Made by a program: the position numbers and the translations under genes
Assembly: GCA_024278695.1 (NCBI GenBank)
Contig: JAJRSR010000129.1
Location: 1-36,793, forward strand
Origin: Planctomycetota bacterium
GTDB lineage: Bacteria; Planctomycetota; Phycisphaerae; UBA1845
Direction of reading: 5' to 3'
Length of the DNA: 36,793 nucleotides
The notes under the pieces: generated by a model
Seen by the model: only the letters and a program-made list of their open reading frames with translations
The model's database searches: none
What the model was told of the DNA's origin: nothing
In this document: positions 1 through 11,427 of the stretch, one piece after another
Numbering within the stretch: position 1 is the stretch's first letter
Layout of the letters: the number at the start of each line of letters is the position of its first letter

Positions 1-2
1 CC

Positions 3-2780
3 GGGTTCGACCGGGCGATCGGTTTTGACATGGGCGGCACCAGCACCGACGTGTGCCGCATCGACAAAGATGGCGATCTCGACTACCAACACGAAACCGT
101 CAAGACCGGCGTGCGAATCATGACACCCATGCTGGCGATCGAAACGGTGGCCGCTGGCGGCGGTAGCGTGTGCGGTTTCGACGGGCAAAAACTCGTCGTC
201 GGACCGCACAGCGCAGGCTCCGATCCGGGCCCAGCCTGCTACGGACGCGGTGGGCCACTGACCGTCACCGATATGAACGTTCACCTCGGGCGCGTCGTGA
301 GCGCGTTTTTCCCCTTCCCGCTCGATCGAAAAGCTACAGACACCAAGCTGCGTTCCCTCGCAGATGAAGTCAACTTGACCACACTATCCCGCCTCTCCCC
401 GACCGATCTCGCGGCTGGCTTTCTCGACATCGCCAACGCGAACATGGCCGCCGCCATCCGGAGCATCTCCGTCGCCAAAGGCTACGACGTGCGCGATTAC
501 GTCCTCACCGCCTTCGGCGGTGCCGGCGCGCAACACGCCTGTGCCATCGCAAGACTCCTAGGCATGACGCAAGTGCTCTGCCACCCCTGCGCCGGCGTAC
601 TCAGCGCGCTTGGGATCACCGTGGCCCACGTCAAGCGTATCGCCGAGCGCAGCGTACAACACCCGCTCAACAACGACTCCCTGTCCTGTGTAGCACCAAT
701 TTTCGATGAGCTAGGCCACGAGCTGACAACCGCACTCATTGGCGACGGCGTATCAAGAAACGCTATCGCAGCGCCGGTGCGATCGGTCGATCTTTGCTAC
801 ACCGGACAGTCCACCCGGCTCCCCGTCCCGCTGCAATCCGCTAGCGTCATGCGTGATGCCTTCGAACGGCAACACAAGCGGCTCTACGGCTACATCCACG
901 CGAATCGCGATATCGAAATTCGTACGATTCGCGTCGAATGCGCCGACACGACCCCCGCGATGCGTGACCATTCAAGCCCATTACCGAGCACCACCAAAAC
1001 CGCGCGAACCACCCCCATGCTCGTCGATGGCTGCATGACCGAGGTGCCGGTGCTTTTGCGATCTGAACTTCTAGCCGGCCAATGCGTCAGCGGACCGGCC
1101 ATCATCGTCGAGCCGACCAGCACCATCGTGATCGACAACGGTTGGGAGGCGACGGTCCGCACTTCCGGCGAGGTGATTCTGCAAGACCAAGAAACCATGC
1201 CGCACCAAGCAGCGGCATCAACCGAAACGGATCCGATTCAACTAGAGTTGTTCAACAATCGTTTCGCCAGCGTGGCCGAACAGATGGGCGTCACGCTTCG
1301 GCGCACGGCACTATCCACCAACGTCAAGGAGCGGCTGGACTATTCGTGCGCCGTGTTTACGGCAAAGGGGGAGCTTGTGGTCAACGCACCGCACATCCCC
1401 GTGCATCTCGGCGGCATGAGCGATTGCGTCAAGTGCCTGCGCGAGGACGTCGAGACGTTTGAGCCTGGTGACGTTTACGTCACGAATGATCCCTACCGCG
1501 GCGGCTCGCACCTCAACGACATCACCGTCATCACACCCGTACATCATGCGTCGGGTGAGCGCGTGCTTTTCTTCGTGGCCAGCCGCGCTCATCACGCGGA
1601 GATCGGTGGAACCAGGCCGGGTTCCATGCCGCCGGACTCGACCAATCTCGCTGAGGAGGGCGTGCTCATCCAAACGTTCCGATGGATGAAACGCGGCACC
1701 GCTCAAACCGACGCCCTGCTTGCGATTCTGACTGCCCCACCTTATCCCTCACGATGCCCCTCCGACAACCTGGCCGACATCACCGCGCAGGTCGCGGCCA
1801 ACCAGACCGGCGTACGTGAGCTTTTGTCTTTGATGGCCCTTTACGGCACGGGTGTCGTCACTGCCTACATGCGCCATATTCAAAACGCCGCAGAGGCAAA
1901 GATGCGTACGACGCTCGGCAAACACCCAGACGGTATGCGTCAGTTTTCAGGCACGCTTGACGACGGTGCCACCATCCGCCTTGGGATCACGGTCAACGGT
2001 AACGCTGCGACGTTCGATTTCACCGGCACGGACCCCGTACTCGCTGGCAACCTCAACGCCAACCGTGCGATCGTGACCAGCGCAGTGCTCTACTGCCTTC
2101 GATGTCTGATCGGTGAGGAGATCCCGCTCAACGCCGGCATGCTCGCGCCCGTTGAGATCATCCTACCGGAGTGCTTTCTCAACCCCACCGCCCGGCAAGA
2201 CGCAGCCGATTGCCCCGCCATCGTCGGCGGCAATGTTGAAACATCGCAGCGCGTGGTCGATACGATCTTCGGCGCGCTGGGCATCGTGGCCGCAAGCCAG
2301 GGCACGATGAACAACCTGCTCATCGGGGATGCCACGTTCGGCTACTACGAGACCATCTGCGGCGGGACCGGCGCGGGACCAAGTTTTCACGGAACCGACG
2401 CCGTGCATTCACACATGACCAACACCCGGCTCACCGATCCGGAAGTGTTGGAGTCGCGCTACCCGGTCCGGTTGGTTCGTTTCGCGATCCGACACGGTTC
2501 CGGCGGAAACGGCGAATTCAAAGGCGGTTGCGGCGTGATTCGCGAGATTGAGTTCCTTCGCCCGCTCGATGTCTCCATCCTCTCGCAGCGAAGAACGACC
2601 AGCCCCTACGGCCTATGCGGCGGCGAACCCGGAGCCTCCGGGAGAAATCTATTGCGGCGGGCCGATAGTGACGATGAAAAGCGACTCGCTCCGGTCGTAC
2701 ACCTCAACGTGTCGTCCGGCGATCGGATCACCATTGAGACGCCCGGCGGCGGCGGATGGGGGCACGTGGCGAACAGCTAG
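3..2780 (+). CDS. 5-oxoprolinase / N-methylhydantoinase-like HyuA-HyuB single-chain protein (5' end outside window)
   Basis: Frame is open from base 3 (GFDRAIGFDMGGTSTDV...). The HyuA motif GFDMGGTSTDV and DPGPACYGRGGPLTVTDMN are followed by HyuB hallmarks (FNNRFASVAEQMGVTLRRTALSTNVKERLDYSCAVF, IPVHLGGM, VTNDPYRGGSHLNDITV, HHAEIGG). The N-terminal ~280 aa of HyuA would lie upstream. Confidence 0.93.
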   Translation, partial: GFDRAIGFDMGGTSTDVCRIDKDGDLDYQHETVKTGVRIMTPMLAIETVAAGGGSVCGFDGQKLVVGPHSAGSDPGPACYGRGGPLTVTDMNVHLGRVVSAFFPFPLDRKATDTKLRSLADEVNLTTLSRLSPTDLAAGFLDIANANMAAAIRSISVAKGYDVRDYVLTAFGGAGAQHACAIARLLGMTQVLCHPCAGVLSALGITVAHVKRIAERSVQHPLNNDSLSCVAPIFDELGHELTTALIGDGVSRNAIAAPVRSVDLCYTGQSTRLPVPLQSASVMRDAFERQHKRLYGYIHANRDIEIRTIRVECADTTPAMRDHSSPLPSTTKTARTTPMLVDGCMTEVPVLLRSELLAGQCVSGPAIIVEPTSTIVIDNGWEATVRTSGEVILQDQETMPHQAAASTETDPIQLELFNNRFASVAEQMGVTLRRTALSTNVKERLDYSCAVFTAKGELVVNAPHIPVHLGGMSDCVKCLREDVETFEPGDVYVTNDPYRGGSHLNDITVITPVHHASGERVLFFVASRAHHAEIGGTRPGSMPPDSTNLAEEGVLIQTFRWMKRGTAQTDALLAILTAPPYPSRCPSDNLADITAQVAANQTGVRELLSLMALYGTGVVTAYMRHIQNAAEAKMRTTLGKHPDGMRQFSGTLDDGATIRLGITVNGNAATFDFTGTDPVLAGNLNANRAIVTSAVLYCLRCLIGEEIPLNAGMLAPVEIILPECFLNPTARQDAADCPAIVGGNVETSQRVVDTIFGALGIVAASQGTMNNLLIGDATFGYYETICGGTGAGPSFHGTDAVHSHMTNTRLTDPEVLESRYPVRLVRFAIRHGSGGNGEFKGGCGVIREIEFLRPLDVSILSQRRTTSPYGLCGGEPGASGRNLLRRADSDDEKRLAPVVHLNVSSGDRITIETPGGGGWGHVANS

Positions 2781-2830
2781 ACCGAAAGGCCAACAGGCAT
2801 GCATCACGAGCATCGCAGGATGAACACCAC

Positions 2831-4621
2831 ATGAGCGCCCGGATTACCTCCATCGAAAACCTCATCACAAGAGACCCGGGTGGCCGCCACATCTTTGAGC
2901 TGATGCTCACGGATCAATTGCGGCTTGCTGCACTTTCGCTGCGCCTCGCGCGTCGCGTCGGCATCGTCAGCGGTTTCTATGTGCCCGAGGCTTCTGCCGC
3001 AGAGACCGATGGACCGCCGGGAGCCAAGGCACTGGGCAACGCGCTGCAATCGCTAGGCGTGGCCGTGGACTACATCACCGATTCGTGGTGCGCTCCAGCA
3101 TTTCGTGCGATCGGTATGGAGCCGCTAATCGAGCCGGACAACTACATCACCACAACCAACCCGAGCCACCTTGTTTCGATCGAGCGGCTTGGCCGGGCCA
3201 TCGACGGGCGCTACCACAACATGCGCGGGACCGACGTCACCGAGACCACAGCACCGCTCGACGGCCTATTCCTGGAAGCGCGCCGGGCCGGGCTCACAAC
3301 AATCGGTATCGGAGACGGCGGCAACGAGATCGGCATGGGACGGGTCTTCGCGGCCACCTGCGCGAACGTGTCGCACGGCAAGCAGATCGCGTCACTCGTT
3401 TCAACGGACTTCTGCATCGCCTCGGGCGTATCGAACTGGGGGGCGTATGGGCTGGCCGGCGCGCTCTCTGTCCTTGCCGGTCGAGACCTGCTCCCAAGCC
3501 CGGACGAGGCAGCAGACGTGGTACGCGCGGTCGTTCGTGATGGCGGCGCGGTAGACGGCGTGACGCTGCGCCGCGAGGCCACCGTCGATGGGATCGCACT
3601 ATCGGAAAGCATCGCCACGTTGGAAAGCATTCGAGCGCAGATCGCCCCACCACCGCTGGCAGACAAGTCCCCACAATGTGTCGGCATTTTGGGATACGGC
3701 GAAACTGGTCGCGCGGCCGCACGCCTGCTCGCACAGCGCGGTCACAAGGTGCGCGTCTCGGATAGCGGCAGCGTCGCGATTGAGGCAGGGCTCGTGTTCG
3801 AGGGCGTCGAAACCGGCAAGCACACGATCGAATTCCTGAAAAGTTGCGATGTCGTCGTGGCCAGCCCCGGCGTACGCCCGGACCACGCGATCCGCGACGC
3901 GCTACACCAACAAGCCGTGCCGGTCATGAGCGAACTGGAGATGGCCTATCAACTCTGTAACCGTGACATCATCGCCGTCACCGGCAGTGTCGGTAAGCGT
4001 GCCACCATCGAGCAGATACAACGGCTCTTCACCACGGCCAACCGCAAGCTGCCCATCGGCGGCAACCGGGGCTTACCGCTCTCGGCCTTGCTATTGGAGG
4101 GTGTCAGTGACGAGCCGCTGGCGCTTGCGGTATCCAGTTTTCAGTTGGAAACGATTGTGGGCTTTCGACCAAGGGTGGCCGTGATTCTCAATCTCGACGA
4201 CGCGCACCTCGATCGGCACGAAACGATCGCGGAGTATGTCCGGATCAAGAGCCGTGTCTTTATGAACCAGGGATACGCACCGAGCACCGTTCAGATGTCA
4301 AAACCCACCCCCAGCGGGGCCGACCTCCTGGTGCTACCGTTTGACGATGAGCGTCTGCGGGCGTTGTCGCGCAAACATCACGGGCAAACCCTCTTCGTCT
4401 CATCGCGGCAATCGATCGATCGAGGCGCGTGGGTTGATGGAGACACCATCGCGCTCAACATCGACGGCGATCTCGAACGAATCAACGTCGACCCACAGGA
4501 TTTGGGCAGCGACGCCGTGAATCTCCTTTCGGCCGTGATCGTGGCGCGGGCTTACGGAATCAGCAGCGAAGCGATTGCGGCATGCCTACGTGAAGAAACT
4601 TCAGCGAAGGTCATACGGTGA
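2831..4621 (+). CDS. DUF4392 (D-glutamate cyclase C-terminal family) domain fused to MurD-like N-terminal and central domains
   Basis: ORF track starts at 2756, but ATG 2831 (MSARITSIENL) is the likelier start. N-terminal half has SGFYVPEASAAETDGPPGAKALGNAL and TIGIGDGGNEIGMG (DUF4392). C-terminal half has a MurD-type Rossmann segment (VGILGYGETGRAAARLLAQRGHKVRVSD, VVASPGVRPDHAI), TGSVGKRAT at the P-loop position, SSFQLE, and VILNLDDAHLDRHETIAEYVRIKSRVF. Confidence 0.88.
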   Translation: MSARITSIENLITRDPGGRHIFELMLTDQLRLAALSLRLARRVGIVSGFYVPEASAAETDGPPGAKALGNALQSLGVAVDYITDSWCAPAFRAIGMEPLIEPDNYITTTNPSHLVSIERLGRAIDGRYHNMRGTDVTETTAPLDGLFLEARRAGLTTIGIGDGGNEIGMGRVFAATCANVSHGKQIASLVSTDFCIASGVSNWGAYGLAGALSVLAGRDLLPSPDEAADVVRAVVRDGGAVDGVTLRREATVDGIALSESIATLESIRAQIAPPPLADKSPQCVGILGYGETGRAAARLLAQRGHKVRVSDSGSVAIEAGLVFEGVETGKHTIEFLKSCDVVVASPGVRPDHAIRDALHQQAVPVMSELEMAYQLCNRDIIAVTGSVGKRATIEQIQRLFTTANRKLPIGGNRGLPLSALLLEGVSDEPLALAVSSFQLETIVGFRPRVAVILNLDDAHLDRHETIAEYVRIKSRVFMNQGYAPSTVQMSKPTPSGADLLVLPFDDERLRALSRKHHGQTLFVSSRQSIDRGAWVDGDTIALNIDGDLERINVDPQDLGSDAVNLLSAVIVARAYGISSEAIAACLREETSAKVIR

Positions 4622-5442
4622 CGCCGCACGAATTGGCTAGCGCTTCCCCTCAGCAAGTTCGCACGGCATGTCGAACCGGCACGTTCGATGGCCCCACGGC
4701 CGGGCTCGCCCCGGGATTCGCGCAAGCCAACCTCGTCGTGCTACCCGCGGACTTGGCCGACGACTTCCGGCAATTCTGTGCCAACAACCCAAAGCCTTGC
4801 CCGGTCTTGGAAATCACGAAACCCGGCAGCCCCGAACCAGTACGATTCGCCCCTGGTGCCGACCTTCGCACCGACCTACCACGTTATCGCATGTTTGAGC
4901 ATGGGGTGTGCGTCGCCCGAACCACCTCCGTCGAAGACCATTGGCCGATCGGTGCAGACCTTGTGGCCTTCCTGCTCGGATGCTCGTTCACTTTCGAACG
5001 TGCCCTGATCGACGCGGGTGTACCCGTGCGTCACATCGAAGAAAACCGCAATGTCCCGATGTACCGCACCAACATCGAATGCGAACCATCGGAGGTTTTC
5101 TCCGGCCCACTTGTCGTTTCCATGCGTCCCATGACGAGGGAGCACGCTAAGAGCGCCACGACAATCACGGCCCGATTCGCCCGCGTCCACGGCGCACCGG
5201 TACACGTCGGACGCCCCGGAGAACAGCACAGCCGCGATTTGGGCATCCCCGACCTGTCCGCACCGGACTACGGAGACGCCGTCACGATCCATCCCGATGA
5301 GGTGCCGGTCTTTTGGGCGTGTGGCGTCACGCCGATGGAGGCAATCGCCCGCGCGCAACCGGCTTTCGCGATCACCCATGAACCCGGACACATGTTCATC
5401 ACAGACGTTCGAGATTCCAAACTGCGTGATCCTGGTGCATAA
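4618..5442 (+). CDS. DUF1445 / YcsI family putative hydro-lyase (D-glutamate cyclase N-terminal family)
   Basis: GTG start overlaps the upstream stop (GTGA). Family signatures: GPTAGLAPGFAQANLVVLP, FCANNPKPCPVLE, RTDLPRYRMF, FLLGCSFTFERALIDAGVPVRHIE, NVPMYRTNI, GPLVVSMRPM, VHGAPVHVG, PDYGDAVTI, EVPVFWACGVTPMEA, AITHEPGHMFITD. Confidence 0.93.
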   Translation: MTPHELASASPQQVRTACRTGTFDGPTAGLAPGFAQANLVVLPADLADDFRQFCANNPKPCPVLEITKPGSPEPVRFAPGADLRTDLPRYRMFEHGVCVARTTSVEDHWPIGADLVAFLLGCSFTFERALIDAGVPVRHIEENRNVPMYRTNIECEPSEVFSGPLVVSMRPMTREHAKSATTITARFARVHGAPVHVGRPGEQHSRDLGIPDLSAPDYGDAVTIHPDEVPVFWACGVTPMEAIARAQPAFAITHEPGHMFITDVRDSKLRDPGA

Positions 5443-6514: not shown

Positions 6515-7678
6515 CTACGCCTTCGCCAACGCCTGATCCATGTCCTGGACCAAATCGTCAATAGCCTCCACCCCAACCGACAACCGGACCAGCCCATCGG
6601 TCACCCCGCGGGCCTCACGGATTTCCTTGGGAATCGACGCGTGGGTCATGATGGCCGGGTGACAGCAGAGCGATTCCACCCCACCGAGCGACTCGGCCAA
6701 CGAGAACACCTGCAAACTCTCGCAAAAACGAATCGCCCGACTGTCATCCTTGAAAAGGATCGTCACCATGCCGCCACCAGCGCACATCTGTCGCTTGGCG
6801 ATCTCAAAATCAGGGTGGTCCTCGAAAAAAGGATAGACGATGCGCTCGAGTTTGCTGTGCCCCTTGAGGTGTGTCGCTAGCTGTGTGGCGTTGGCGCAGT
6901 GCCGCTCCATACGAAGCGACAGCGTCTTGATCCCGCGATGCTGAAGATAACAGTCGAACGAGCCTGGAACGCCACCGATAGCGTTTTGCATAAACGCCAC
7001 ACGTTCCATGAGTGCTTCATCCTTGACAACCACGGCACCGCCGATCACGTCGGAGTGCCCCCCGATATACTTGGTCGTGCTATGAACCACATAGTCAGCA
7101 CCAAGCGTCAACGGAACTTGAAGTGCGGGCGTAGCGAATGTGTTGTCCACCACCAGCTTGGCACCCACGCCATGCGCCACCTTCGCCAGCGCAGTGATAT
7201 CCAGGCACCGAAGCAAGGGATTCGTCGGTGTTTCGATCCATACGAGCTTGGTCTTGTCGTCGATCAGGTTTTCAAACTCTGCCACAGTCACGTCGTCAGC
7301 GAACACCGAAACGATGCCATACGCCTCAAACACCTGCTTCATCATCCGAAACGTGCCACCGTAGACGTCGGCATAAGCCACCACCTTGTCGCCCGGGGCA
7401 AGCGTGTGCAGAATCGAAGCCGTTGCGGCAGAGCCAGATGCGAAGGACGCACCAGCCGCCCCTTGCTCCAGGGATGCCAGGCACGCCTCGAGGCGGATCC
7501 GCGTCGGGTTTCCTGATCGTGAGTACTCGAAGCCCTGATGCTGCCCGGGCGAGGATTGCGTATAGGTGCTGGTCAGATGCAGCGGCGGCACGGTGGCCCC
7601 GGTCTCGGCATCGGGCTCCTGTCCAACGTGGATCGCCCGAGTCGCAAAGCCTCGGGCGGCGTAGTCTGTTTCTTTCAT
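6515..7678 (-). CDS. Cystathionine gamma-synthase/gamma-lyase (Cys/Met metabolism PLP enzyme)
   Basis: ATRAIHVGQEPDAETGATVPPLHLTSTY, FEYSRSGNPTR, SFASGSAATASILHTL, DVYGGTFRM, WIETPTNPLLR, VVDNTFATP, HSTTKYIGGHSDVIGG, SLGGVESLCCHPAIMTHASI. SD GGAAAGGTG before ATG. Confidence 0.95.
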   Translation of the reverse strand: MKETDYAARGFATRAIHVGQEPDAETGATVPPLHLTSTYTQSSPGQHQGFEYSRSGNPTRIRLEACLASLEQGAAGASFASGSAATASILHTLAPGDKVVAYADVYGGTFRMMKQVFEAYGIVSVFADDVTVAEFENLIDDKTKLVWIETPTNPLLRCLDITALAKVAHGVGAKLVVDNTFATPALQVPLTLGADYVVHSTTKYIGGHSDVIGGAVVVKDEALMERVAFMQNAIGGVPGSFDCYLQHRGIKTLSLRMERHCANATQLATHLKGHSKLERIVYPFFEDHPDFEIAKRQMCAGGGMVTILFKDDSRAIRFCESLQVFSLAESLGGVESLCCHPAIMTHASIPKEIREARGVTDGLVRLSVGVEAIDDLVQDMDQALAKA

Positions 7679-8530: not shown

Positions 8531-10408
8531 ATGGTCGTTGCGACCGAAACAAAGAACACAGACAGGCAGCCTAAAAAGGTTATCGAAGTCAACGAGATCA
8601 CGGTGCGGTTCGCCGGTGACTCTGGTGACGGCATGCAGCTCGCCGGCACCCAGATGACCAACACGTCGGCCATCTTTGGTAACGACATCAGCACCCTGCC
8701 GGATTTCCCGGCAGAGATTCGCGCCCCAGCCGGTACGCTGGCTGGAGTCAGCGGGTTCCAACTGCGGTTTGGGTCACAGAAGGTGCTGACGCCGGGAGAC
8801 CAGGTCAACGCATTGATCGCAATGAACCCCGCCGGTCTCAAGGCCAACCTGTCCGATCTGGAACCCGGCGGCATTCTCGTGGTCAACAAGGATGCCTTCA
8901 CCAAGAGCAACTTGGACAAAGCCGGCTACGAAGCTAATCCGCTCGAAGACGACTCACTCCAAGGCTACAAGCTCTATAGCGTTCCTATCGACACGCTCAA
9001 CAAGGAGGCGTGCAAGGACTCAGACCTCACGGGCCGCGCGGTGGGTCGCTGTAAGAACTTCTTCGCACTAGGCTTGGTTTACTGGATGTACGGCCGACCG
9101 ATGGATGCCAGCTTGTCCTGGATCGAGTCAAAGTTTGGCAGCAAGCCCTCCGTCGCAGACGCCAACGCCAAGGCCTTGAAAGCCGGGTTCTATTTCGGCG
9201 AAACCGCCGAGATGTTCCCCGTTTGCTACCTGATAGCGCCGGCCAAGATCCAACCGGGACAGTACCGTCGCGTAAGCGGCAATGAGGCGACGGCCTTAGG
9301 GCTCATCGCCGCCGCCAGCCAAGCCGGCAAGACCCTGTTCTACGGCACCTACCCGATCACCCCGGCCAGTGACATCTTGCACGAACTCGCACGACACAAG
9401 AACTTTGACGTGCGAACTTTTCAAGCTGAAGACGAAATCGCCGCGATGGTCTCAGTCGTCGGCGCTGCCTATGCCGGAGCGTTTGCGGCGACCGGCACCA
9501 GCGGCCCGGGCATGGCGCTCAAGGGTGAGGCTCTCGGCTTGGCCGTGATGACTGAACTACCGATGGTGATCGTCAACGTGCAGCGCGGTGGCCCGAGTAC
9601 CGGACTACCCACCAAGACGGAGCAATCCGATCTCTTCCAGGCGATGTTCGGCCGAAACGGCGAGGCCCCGCTATGCGTCATCGCAGCCGCCACACCGGCA
9701 GACTGCTTCGGCATGGCCATCGAAGCGTTCCGCATTGCGGTAGCGTTCATGACTCCGGTGATACTGCTGACCGACGGCTACTTGGCCAACGGTGCCGAGC
9801 CGTGGAAACTCCCCGACGTCGCGAGTCTCCCGAAAATCAGCGTCAACCACCCGACCGACCCCGGAAGCTTCTTGCCCTATGGTCGCGACGATAACCTCGT
9901 GCGTCCCTGGGCTATTCCATCAACGCCCGGTCTGGAGCATCGACTCGGCGGACTGGAGAAGCACTTCGAGACGGGTGAAGTCTGTTACGACTTTGAGAAC
10001 CATCACCGTATGACCGAAACGCGTCGCGCCAAGATCGACGGAATCGCCAACGTGATTCCCGATCTCGAGGTCACCGGTGATGCGTCCGGAGAATTGCTCG
10101 TTCTTGGCTGGGGCAGCACCTACGGTGCCATTGCCACGGCCATCGACCGCTGCCACGAGAACGGCGTCAAGGTCTCCAGCGCTCACCTGAAATACCTCGA
10201 CCCGATGCCCAAGAACACGGGCGACGTGCTAAAGCGCTTTAAGCGCGTGCTGATTCCAGAAATGAACCTCGGGCAGCTTCTGCCCATTATTCGTGGAAAG
10301 TTCCTCGTCGATGCCGTTGGCCTGAACAAGGTACAGGGCAAGCCATTCATGGTGGGCGAGATTGAAAATAAGATTACGGAACTCTTGTCGAACGGATCGA
10401 AGTCATGA
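8531..10408 (+). CDS. korA: 2-oxoglutarate (2-oxoacid):ferredoxin oxidoreductase, fused gamma-alpha subunit
   Basis: Gamma domain ITVRFAGDSGDGMQLAGTQ...DFPAEIRAPAGTLAGVSGFQL. Alpha domain GNEATALGLIAAASQAGKTLFYGTYPITPASDILHELA...FQAEDEIAAM, TGTSGPGMALKGEALGLA, ELPMVIVNVQRGGPSTGLPTKTEQSDL. SD AAGAGGAG upstream of ATG 8531. Confidence 0.93.
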   Translation: MVVATETKNTDRQPKKVIEVNEITVRFAGDSGDGMQLAGTQMTNTSAIFGNDISTLPDFPAEIRAPAGTLAGVSGFQLRFGSQKVLTPGDQVNALIAMNPAGLKANLSDLEPGGILVVNKDAFTKSNLDKAGYEANPLEDDSLQGYKLYSVPIDTLNKEACKDSDLTGRAVGRCKNFFALGLVYWMYGRPMDASLSWIESKFGSKPSVADANAKALKAGFYFGETAEMFPVCYLIAPAKIQPGQYRRVSGNEATALGLIAAASQAGKTLFYGTYPITPASDILHELARHKNFDVRTFQAEDEIAAMVSVVGAAYAGAFAATGTSGPGMALKGEALGLAVMTELPMVIVNVQRGGPSTGLPTKTEQSDLFQAMFGRNGEAPLCVIAAATPADCFGMAIEAFRIAVAFMTPVILLTDGYLANGAEPWKLPDVASLPKISVNHPTDPGSFLPYGRDDNLVRPWAIPSTPGLEHRLGGLEKHFETGEVCYDFENHHRMTETRRAKIDGIANVIPDLEVTGDASGELLVLGWGSTYGAIATAIDRCHENGVKVSSAHLKYLDPMPKNTGDVLKRFKRVLIPEMNLGQLLPIIRGKFLVDAVGLNKVQGKPFMVGEIENKITELLSNGSKS

Positions 10409-11427
10409 GTAGCGACAACGCGATGGTACAACTGACGGCCAAAGATTTCGCGAGTAGCCAGGACGTACGCTGGTGTCCGGGGTGCGGAGATTACTCCATC
10501 CTCGCCCAGGTCAAGAAGGTGATGGCCAGCCTCGGCACGATAAAAGAAAACACCGTGTGCGTGTCCGGCATCGGCTGCTCAAGCCGGTTCCCCTATTACG
10601 TAGATACCTACGGGTTCCACAGCATTCATGGCCGCGCGCCGGCACTGGCCACCGGCATTAAGCTCGCCAACCCGGAGCTCAACGTATGGTTGGCCACGGG
10701 CGATGGCGACGGACTCAGCATCGGTGGCAACCACCTGTTGCACGCCATCCGCCGCAACGTGGATATCAACATCCTACTCTTCAACAACCGAATCTACGGT
10801 CTTACGAAGGGGCAGTATTCTCCGACATCACCCCTCGGCAAGAAGACCAAATCTTCCCCGATGGGCTCGGTGGATTTCCCGTTGCACCCGCTTTCCGTGG
10901 CTATTGGCGCAGAGGCCAGCTTCGTCGCGAGGTCAATCGACATCAACACCAAGCACCTCACGGCGACGCTCGAACGGGCCGCGCGCCACAAGGGCACGTC
11001 GTTCATCGAGATCTACCAAAACTGCAACATTTTCAACGATGGTGCGTTTGAATACGCCACCGGCAAGGAAACGAAAGAGGACACCACCGTTTTCCTTGAA
11101 CACAACAGGCCACTCGTCTTCGGCAAGGATGGCTCCAAAGGCATCCGCCTTAACGGCATGAGTCCAGAGATCGTTACGCTAGGCAACGGCATCACAGAGG
11201 ATGACCTGTTGTTCCACGATGAGGCGCTGGCCGAGCCAAGCTTGGCGTACCTCTTGTCTCGGATGCACTACCCCGAGTTCCCCGAACCGATGGGCGTGTT
11301 CCGAGCGGTCGAACGACCAATCTTCGAAGATCTCGTCATGGGCCAAGTCCATAGCGCGGTGAAGTCAAAGGGCAAAGGCGATTTGGCCGCCCTACTCGCC
11401 AGCGGTGAGACCTGGAAGGTCAACTGA
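10405..11427 (+). CDS. korB: 2-oxoglutarate (2-oxoacid):ferredoxin oxidoreductase beta subunit
   Basis: ATGA overlap with korA. Motifs RWCPGCGDYSILAQV, SGIGCSSRFPYY, HGRAPALATGIKLANPEL, TGDGDGLSIGGNHLLHAIRRNVDI, NNRIYGLTKGQYSPTS. Confidence 0.95.
   Translation: MSSDNAMVQLTAKDFASSQDVRWCPGCGDYSILAQVKKVMASLGTIKENTVCVSGIGCSSRFPYYVDTYGFHSIHGRAPALATGIKLANPELNVWLATGDGDGLSIGGNHLLHAIRRNVDINILLFNNRIYGLTKGQYSPTSPLGKKTKSSPMGSVDFPLHPLSVAIGAEASFVARSIDINTKHLTATLERAARHKGTSFIEIYQNCNIFNDGAFEYATGKETKEDTTVFLEHNRPLVFGKDGSKGIRLNGMSPEIVTLGNGITEDDLLFHDEALAEPSLAYLLSRMHYPEFPEPMGVFRAVERPIFEDLVMGQVHSAVKSKGKGDLAALLASGETWKVN

Follow-up and report, generated by a model that had tools for sequence, protein, structure and literature searches.

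The window analysed here, which is the whole of a 36,793-nucleotide stretch of DNA, is contig JAJRSR010000129.1, positions 1 to 36,793, of assembly GCA_024278695.1 (Planctomycetota; Phycisphaerae; UBA1845). It opens with an operon whose middle product joins a DUF4392 domain, resembling one half of a D-glutamate (D-Glu) cyclase, to what its residues indicate is a conserved, catalytically dead copy of the ligase MurD. The flanking genes encode a single-chain HyuA-HyuB protein (HyuAB) and a DUF1445 protein. We propose that the operon disposes of free D-Glu under the control of peptidoglycan precursor supply, with the dead MurD acting as the sensor, and we give this proposal just short of an even chance of being right. 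The sequence-only reading of this DNA had recognised three plus-strand genes, the last two overlapping by GTGA, and the open reading frames (ORFs) bear this out, as do Pfam matches for the HyuA-HyuB chain (PF01968 and PF02538) and the DUF1445 protein (PF07286, E 3.5e-65). It had described the middle gene simply as encoding a DUF4392 protein, which is correct for the first half (PF14336, E 1.8e-78) but overlooks the MurD-like second half. A fully ordinary account, in which the operon is a split version of the mammalian D-glutamate cyclase DGLUCY and nothing more, was rejected owing to that MurD half.

In the longest ORF of the fusion gene, which has 621 residues, DUF4392 occupies residues 33-292, and residues 309-613 align to positions 2-300 of the 441 in the MurD model TIGR01087 (E 2.2e-50). 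The second half also matches PF21799 (MurD-like N-terminal), PF08245 (Mur ligase middle) and MurD structures in the PDB, and its score against TIGR01087, 172 bits, lies under the cut-off of 211.95. AlphaFold2 returned one confident model for the fusion (pLDDT 90.3, pTM 0.89), in which Foldseek matched the head to the archaeal DUF4392 protein TON_0340 (TMt ~0.9) and the tail to MurD. Six acids that bind metal in TON_0340 (E59, D61, E119, D163, E167 and D243, in A1 numbering, where residue 1 is the codon at 2828) are invariant in 14 fusions. As a candidate MurD ligase, the tail has the first two domains, which bind UDP (N-terminal) and act as the ATPase (central), and lacks both the D-Glu-binding domain and the full set of catalytic residues.

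The tails of 16 fusions were aligned to E. coli MurD, whose residue numbers are used for the tail as in the literature. S71, P72, G73, N138 and S159 are present in 16/16 tails, H183, K115 and K198 in 15/16 each, and D35 in 14/16. The position of E157 holds Ala in 15 of the 16 and Thr in one, that of S116 holds Arg in 15/16, and that of N268 is mostly Phe. The C-terminal domain, D317 included, is absent from all fusions, the chains ending at MurD position ~300; in E. coli MurD this domain (residues 299-437) binds D-Glu (PMC3527612). All 26 genuine MurDs examined from the window's GTDB family, which is represented by 51 genomes, keep K115, S116, T117, N138, E157, S159, H183, K198, D317, T321 and S415. 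Because E157 and S116 have been replaced in a fixed way while the genuine family MurDs keep both, we regard the tail, by the evidence of its residues, as a conserved and catalytically dead MurD, that is, a pseudoenzyme. The tail also appears to be maintained and co-inherited with the head, because mean identity across the 14 family fusions is nearly equal (tail 62%, head 68%), 72 of 287 tail columns are invariant, and head and tail distances are correlated (r 0.68, p 4e-4). A literature search found no paper linking a pseudoenzyme with a Mur ligase.

The possibility that the tail is the organism's only MurD was rejected. Full-length MurDs scoring 275-313 bits were found in the seven family genomes first checked, and because most fusion genomes also encode a full-length MurD that passes the model cut-off, the tail is not what the cell uses as MurD. 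In the window's genome, the full-length MurD is encoded on another contig (C259), ~12.5 kb upstream of HyuAB and outside the dcw cluster. The genuine family MurDs (L021 and others) have SNAQLE or SSAQLE in place of SSFQLE and mostly His182; three MurDs from genomes that have MurI were examined, and these keep Phe161.

The arrangement of the operon is not due to chance, because among the 17 of 51 family genomes that contain DUF4392, DUF1445 is present in 16 and a HyuAB orthologue in all 17, compared with 8 of the 34 genomes without DUF4392. By coordinates, HyuAB lies directly upstream of the DUF4392 gene in 14/17 genomes, and DUF1445 adjoins DUF4392 or is fused to it in 12/16. The linkage of the cyclase halves with HyuAB, on which the earlier interpretation leaned, is thus conserved across genera in related Phycisphaerae, and the presence of both halves on separate chains, which it had also claimed, is confirmed by the DUF1445 and DUF4392 domains on neighbouring genes. 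The split is not a special feature of this locus, however: splitting is common, and DUF1445 lies nearby or in the same chain at 29 of the 80 DUF4392 loci taken from the genome collection. PxpA, PxpB and PxpC, which constitute a prokaryotic 5-oxoprolinase unrelated to HyuAB, are present as well in five of those 29 loci (four Spirochaetes, one Clostridia), with one DUF4392-PxpB fusion. Among the 80 loci, HyuAB lies beside Phycisphaerae fusions only, and the three operon genes of the window and the fusion loci of the family gave no match to PxpA, PxpB or PxpC.

Because the same partner role is filled by two non-homologous oxoprolinases, HyuAB and PxpABC, a pathway from D-Glu through 5-oxoproline to glutamate is supported, and D-Glu disposal is its likely purpose. 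The equilibrium ratio [L-Glu]/[5-oxoproline] is about 0.035, which favours the lactam (PMC13274462); by symmetry it is equally valid for the D pair, so that cyclisation is the favoured direction. The two-step route that had been proposed at the outset therefore gains from the conserved linkage and the recurrence of PxpABC, although its second step stays at the level of a proposal, as the substrate of HyuAB cannot be read from sequence. We infer that HyuAB is an ATP-driven 5-oxoprolinase-like enzyme. Like OPLAH, it has HyuA and HyuB in one chain. The contig begins inside its ORF, and the missing ~355 N-terminal residues were found on contig C259, the final 359 bases of which (C259:18403-18761) correspond to window positions 1-359 at 99.4% identity, with two mismatches. 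Orthologues upstream of the fusion at three other loci (L012, L014 and L015) are 1,275-1,298 residues long, compared with about 1,250-1,290 for a single chain of the OPLAH type.

Independent evidence linking DUF4392 with the MurD step comes from DUF4392-MurL-MurD2 operons. In an Omnitrophota locus (L123:5998-9739) the gene order is Jag/EloR, DUF4392, MurL and a MurD carrying Glu182 and Arg348, the MurL match (NF041275) being 200 bits, below the strict cut-off of 700. A planctomycete locus (L209:5801-9484, minus strand) has the order DUF4392-MurL-MurD and the Glu182 and Arg348 signature too. Reverting these two residues switches MurD2 from L-Glu to D-Glu (PMC8788868). Since free D-Glu is not a precursor in the MurL/MurD2 pathway, a cyclase beside it would handle recycled D-Glu. 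Omnitrophota and planctomycetes are not named in the passage of that review on MurL/MurD2 taxa, and a literature search combining MurL with D-glutamate cyclase gave nothing beyond one review containing both terms. The MurD of the window's genome was also considered as a MurD2 and rejected, because it has His182 and Lys348 at the key positions, though P414 and F416 match.

The fusion is carried by Phycisphaerae-type planctomycetes (L097, L099-L101, L103 and family members), one other planctomycete (L102/L177) and one metagenome-assembled genome labelled Desulfarculaceae (L098). In the DUF4392 head tree (FastTree), a single clade (SH 96) contains all 16 fusions along with one contig that has no tail (L104) and one direct fusion of DUF4392 to DUF1445, so that a single fusion event with later loss probably fits best. 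In genus g17 of the window's family, DUF4392 is joined to DUF1445 and the MurD tail is missing (L002, L049). Further afield, DUF4392 is fused to DUF1445, with DUF4392 first, in Clostridia (L164:5797-7623), and to PxpB in Spirochaetales (L147:5941-7497).

In the scheme that we favour, the DUF4392 half and the DUF1445 protein would form a split D-glutamate cyclase converting D-Glu to 5-oxo-D-proline, as has been reported for DGLUCY (9030617O03Rik), which contains both domains (Ariyoshi 2017, PMC5339696), and HyuAB would drain the lactam to glutamate using ATP, directly or after racemisation. According to its sequence and predicted fold, the tail is a MurD without the D-Glu-binding domain or key ATP/Mg residues that has kept most of the UDP-MurNAc-L-Ala (UMA) cleft, with S71, P72, G73, N138 and H183 among the retained contact positions, and it would most likely serve as an allosteric sensor of UMA or as a module that docks it. 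The reported UMA contacts are L15, T16, D35, T36, R37, G73, N138 and H183 (PMC12844806). The direction of control is a supposition: precursor awaiting D-Glu would hold the cyclase back, and when precursor is scarce, surplus or recycled D-Glu would be destroyed. One substrate of MurD would then gate the destruction of its second. In this view the operon would behave as a DGLUCY-type cyclase supplemented by a regulatory domain, the tail being a ligand-binding remnant of MurD and, given its altered catalytic features, not a MurD itself. The recruitment of a dead MurD as a UMA sensor is put forward tentatively, and we rate it somewhat below an even chance.

Several observations weigh against this scheme. 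The tails do not retain the UMA contacts L15, T36 and R37, which means an altered uracil pocket; the same three positions vary in the family's genuine MurDs too and are therefore not diagnostic. In the diverged fusion L102 (L102:6001-7788), K115, H183 and K198 are lost: its P-loop reads GSIGRAST, the HLDRH motif is gone and Leu occupies the K198 position. The tail is dispensable, as two genomes (G278 and G312) lack it and have DUF4392 fused directly to DUF1445. In another genome (G166) the fusion, HyuAB and DUF1445 lie on three separate contigs. For the archaeal relative TON_0340, the reported activity is that of a weak Mn-dependent phosphatase, with the metal-binding acids named (PMC5132392), and the literature searched contained no biochemistry or study of a bacterial role for bacterial DUF4392 or D-glutamate cyclase. 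Stereochemistry is a further concern. Were HyuAB to act on 5-oxo-D-proline, its product would be D-Glu again and the cycle would be futile, which leaves a racemisation step to be supplied; a racemase is likewise required if the enantiomer made by the cyclase is D and the one opened by HyuAB is L.

An alternative that we consider unlikely, yet serious, is that D-Glu disposal stands and the role of the tail is structural or one of docking, contributing stability, oligomerisation or binding of HyuAB, DUF1445 or the genuine MurD, with no precursor bound. The altered uracil contacts would be explained, as would the loci in which DUF1445 replaces the tail in the same chain, and the pTM of the model suggests a fixed placement of the two halves. 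The loss is specific, however: nearly every tail preserves N138, H183 and the SPG loop despite having lost the ATP/Mg residue E157 and the D-Glu domain, and a mere spacer would be unlikely to retain N138 and H183 so consistently. That the tail is instead a decaying, functionless remnant of gene fusion is very improbable: the further loss of catalytic residues in L102, the most distant fusion, and loss of the tail in one genus would fit decay, but the open frame, the near-equal conservation of head and tail in the family fusions and the many invariant columns would not. It is improbable, too, that HyuAB is no 5-oxoprolinase and opens or carboxylates another substrate, the cyclase linkage reflecting some other metabolism. 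About equal PDB scores for a single-chain protein named N-methylhydantoinase (7hk5) and a caprolactamase pair (6yra) leave room for this, and G065, G299 and five more diverged cases have HyuAB orthologues and no cyclase genes. Against it, equivalent Spirochaetes operons carry PxpABC in place of HyuAB, which points to 5-oxoproline as the shared substrate.

The pathway could also run in the biosynthetic direction, with bacteria that lack MurI obtaining their wall D-Glu via 5-oxoproline and the fused tail delivering it toward MurD. MurI is above the cut-off in 0/17 DUF4392 genomes compared with 11/34 others, MurI and DUF4392 never occur together in one genome (0/51), and in G166, G230, G287 and G181 the distance between MurD and the operon is 11-50 kb. 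The exclusion between MurI and DUF4392 (genus-level hypergeometric p 0.0007, with phylogeny not corrected for) is suggestive and may follow phylogeny. As an explanation of MurI loss the operon is weak, since both MurI and DUF4392 are missing from 23 family genomes and the loss thus needs no cyclase. In 50/51 family genomes there are class IV aminotransferases that match the D-amino-acid transaminase model with scores under its cut-off, and these are a possible alternative source of D-Glu. The equilibrium, moreover, lies strongly toward 5-oxoproline over glutamate, and we find the biosynthetic direction quite improbable.

The coordinates of the operon are collected in the table below. The start of the fusion gene, ATG 2831 (MSARITS...), was picked by homology, and if it is correct the gap between the HyuAB and fusion genes is ~50 bases. 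The DUF1445 protein scored 383 bits against NF003969 (NCBIfam), for which the cut-off is 324. Elsewhere in the window, a gene pair resembling 2-oxoacid:ferredoxin oxidoreductase, judged from sequence alone, lies at 8531..11427, and a Cys/Met-metabolism pyridoxal phosphate enzyme (PF01053) is encoded on the other strand at 6515..7678; neither has a clear link to the operon.

Table. Genes of the operon and the two parts of the fusion, in window coordinates.
Feature	Position	Strand	Details
HyuA-HyuB single-chain ATP-dependent lactamase, 5-oxoprolinase-like	3..2780	+	925 aa in window; PF01968 and PF02538
Fusion protein, DUF4392 and MurD-like putative pseudo-ligase without C-terminal domain	2831..4621	+	596 aa; PF14336, TIGR01087, PF08245, PF21799
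DUF4392 half of fusion (D-glutamate cyclase-like)	2831..3655	+	Six TON_0340 metal-binding acids present
MurD-like tail, N-terminal UDP-binding and central domains	3677..4615	+	P-loop GSVGKRAT; Ala at E157 position; N138 and H183 retained (N413 and H460 in A1 numbering); alignment to E. coli MurD and 26 family MurDs
DUF1445 / D-Glu_cyclase (YcsI-like)	4618..5442	+	274 aa; GTG start overlaps preceding stop; PF07286, NF003969

The name D-glutamate cyclase comes from the protein of mouse and human. The fusion to an apparently dead MurD, the MurL/MurD2 operons and the two unrelated oxoprolinases together place the substrate chemistry of the cyclase within the D-Glu branch of peptidoglycan metabolism, and the bacterial role of DUF4392 thereby gains a testable answer. 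If the sensor reading is true, a pseudoenzyme would provide feedback between peptidoglycan synthesis and D-amino-acid catabolism. If the tail binds UMA, it would be a metabolite sensor derived from a Mur ligase, at a D-Glu control point undescribed in the literature searched.

Compared with known systems, the operon resembles mammalian DGLUCY in encoding both DUF1445 and DUF4392, here in adjacent genes and far above the cut-offs, and differs in dividing the domains between two chains, in reversed order, and in having a MurD-derived pseudo-ligase at the end of the DUF4392 chain. The head shares the fold and the six metal-binding acids of TON_0340 (PDB 4fc5, 5gl2-5gl4), which is a stand-alone domain with no MurD tail. 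With MurD itself, the tail shares the N-terminal and central domains, the SSFQLE and HLDRH motifs, N138, H183, K115 and K198, whereas it has no C-terminal D-Glu-binding domain, has E157 and S116 replaced and is fused behind DUF4392. In the PxpABC operons (L131, L147) the cyclase halves are likewise linked to an ATP-dependent oxoprolinase, in whose place the window has the unrelated HyuAB type. As for the MurL/MurD2 pathway (PMC8788868), one operon at each of L123 and L209 combines DUF4392, MurL and a MurD of the MurD2 signature, whereas the MurD of the window's genome has His182 and Lys348 in place of that signature.

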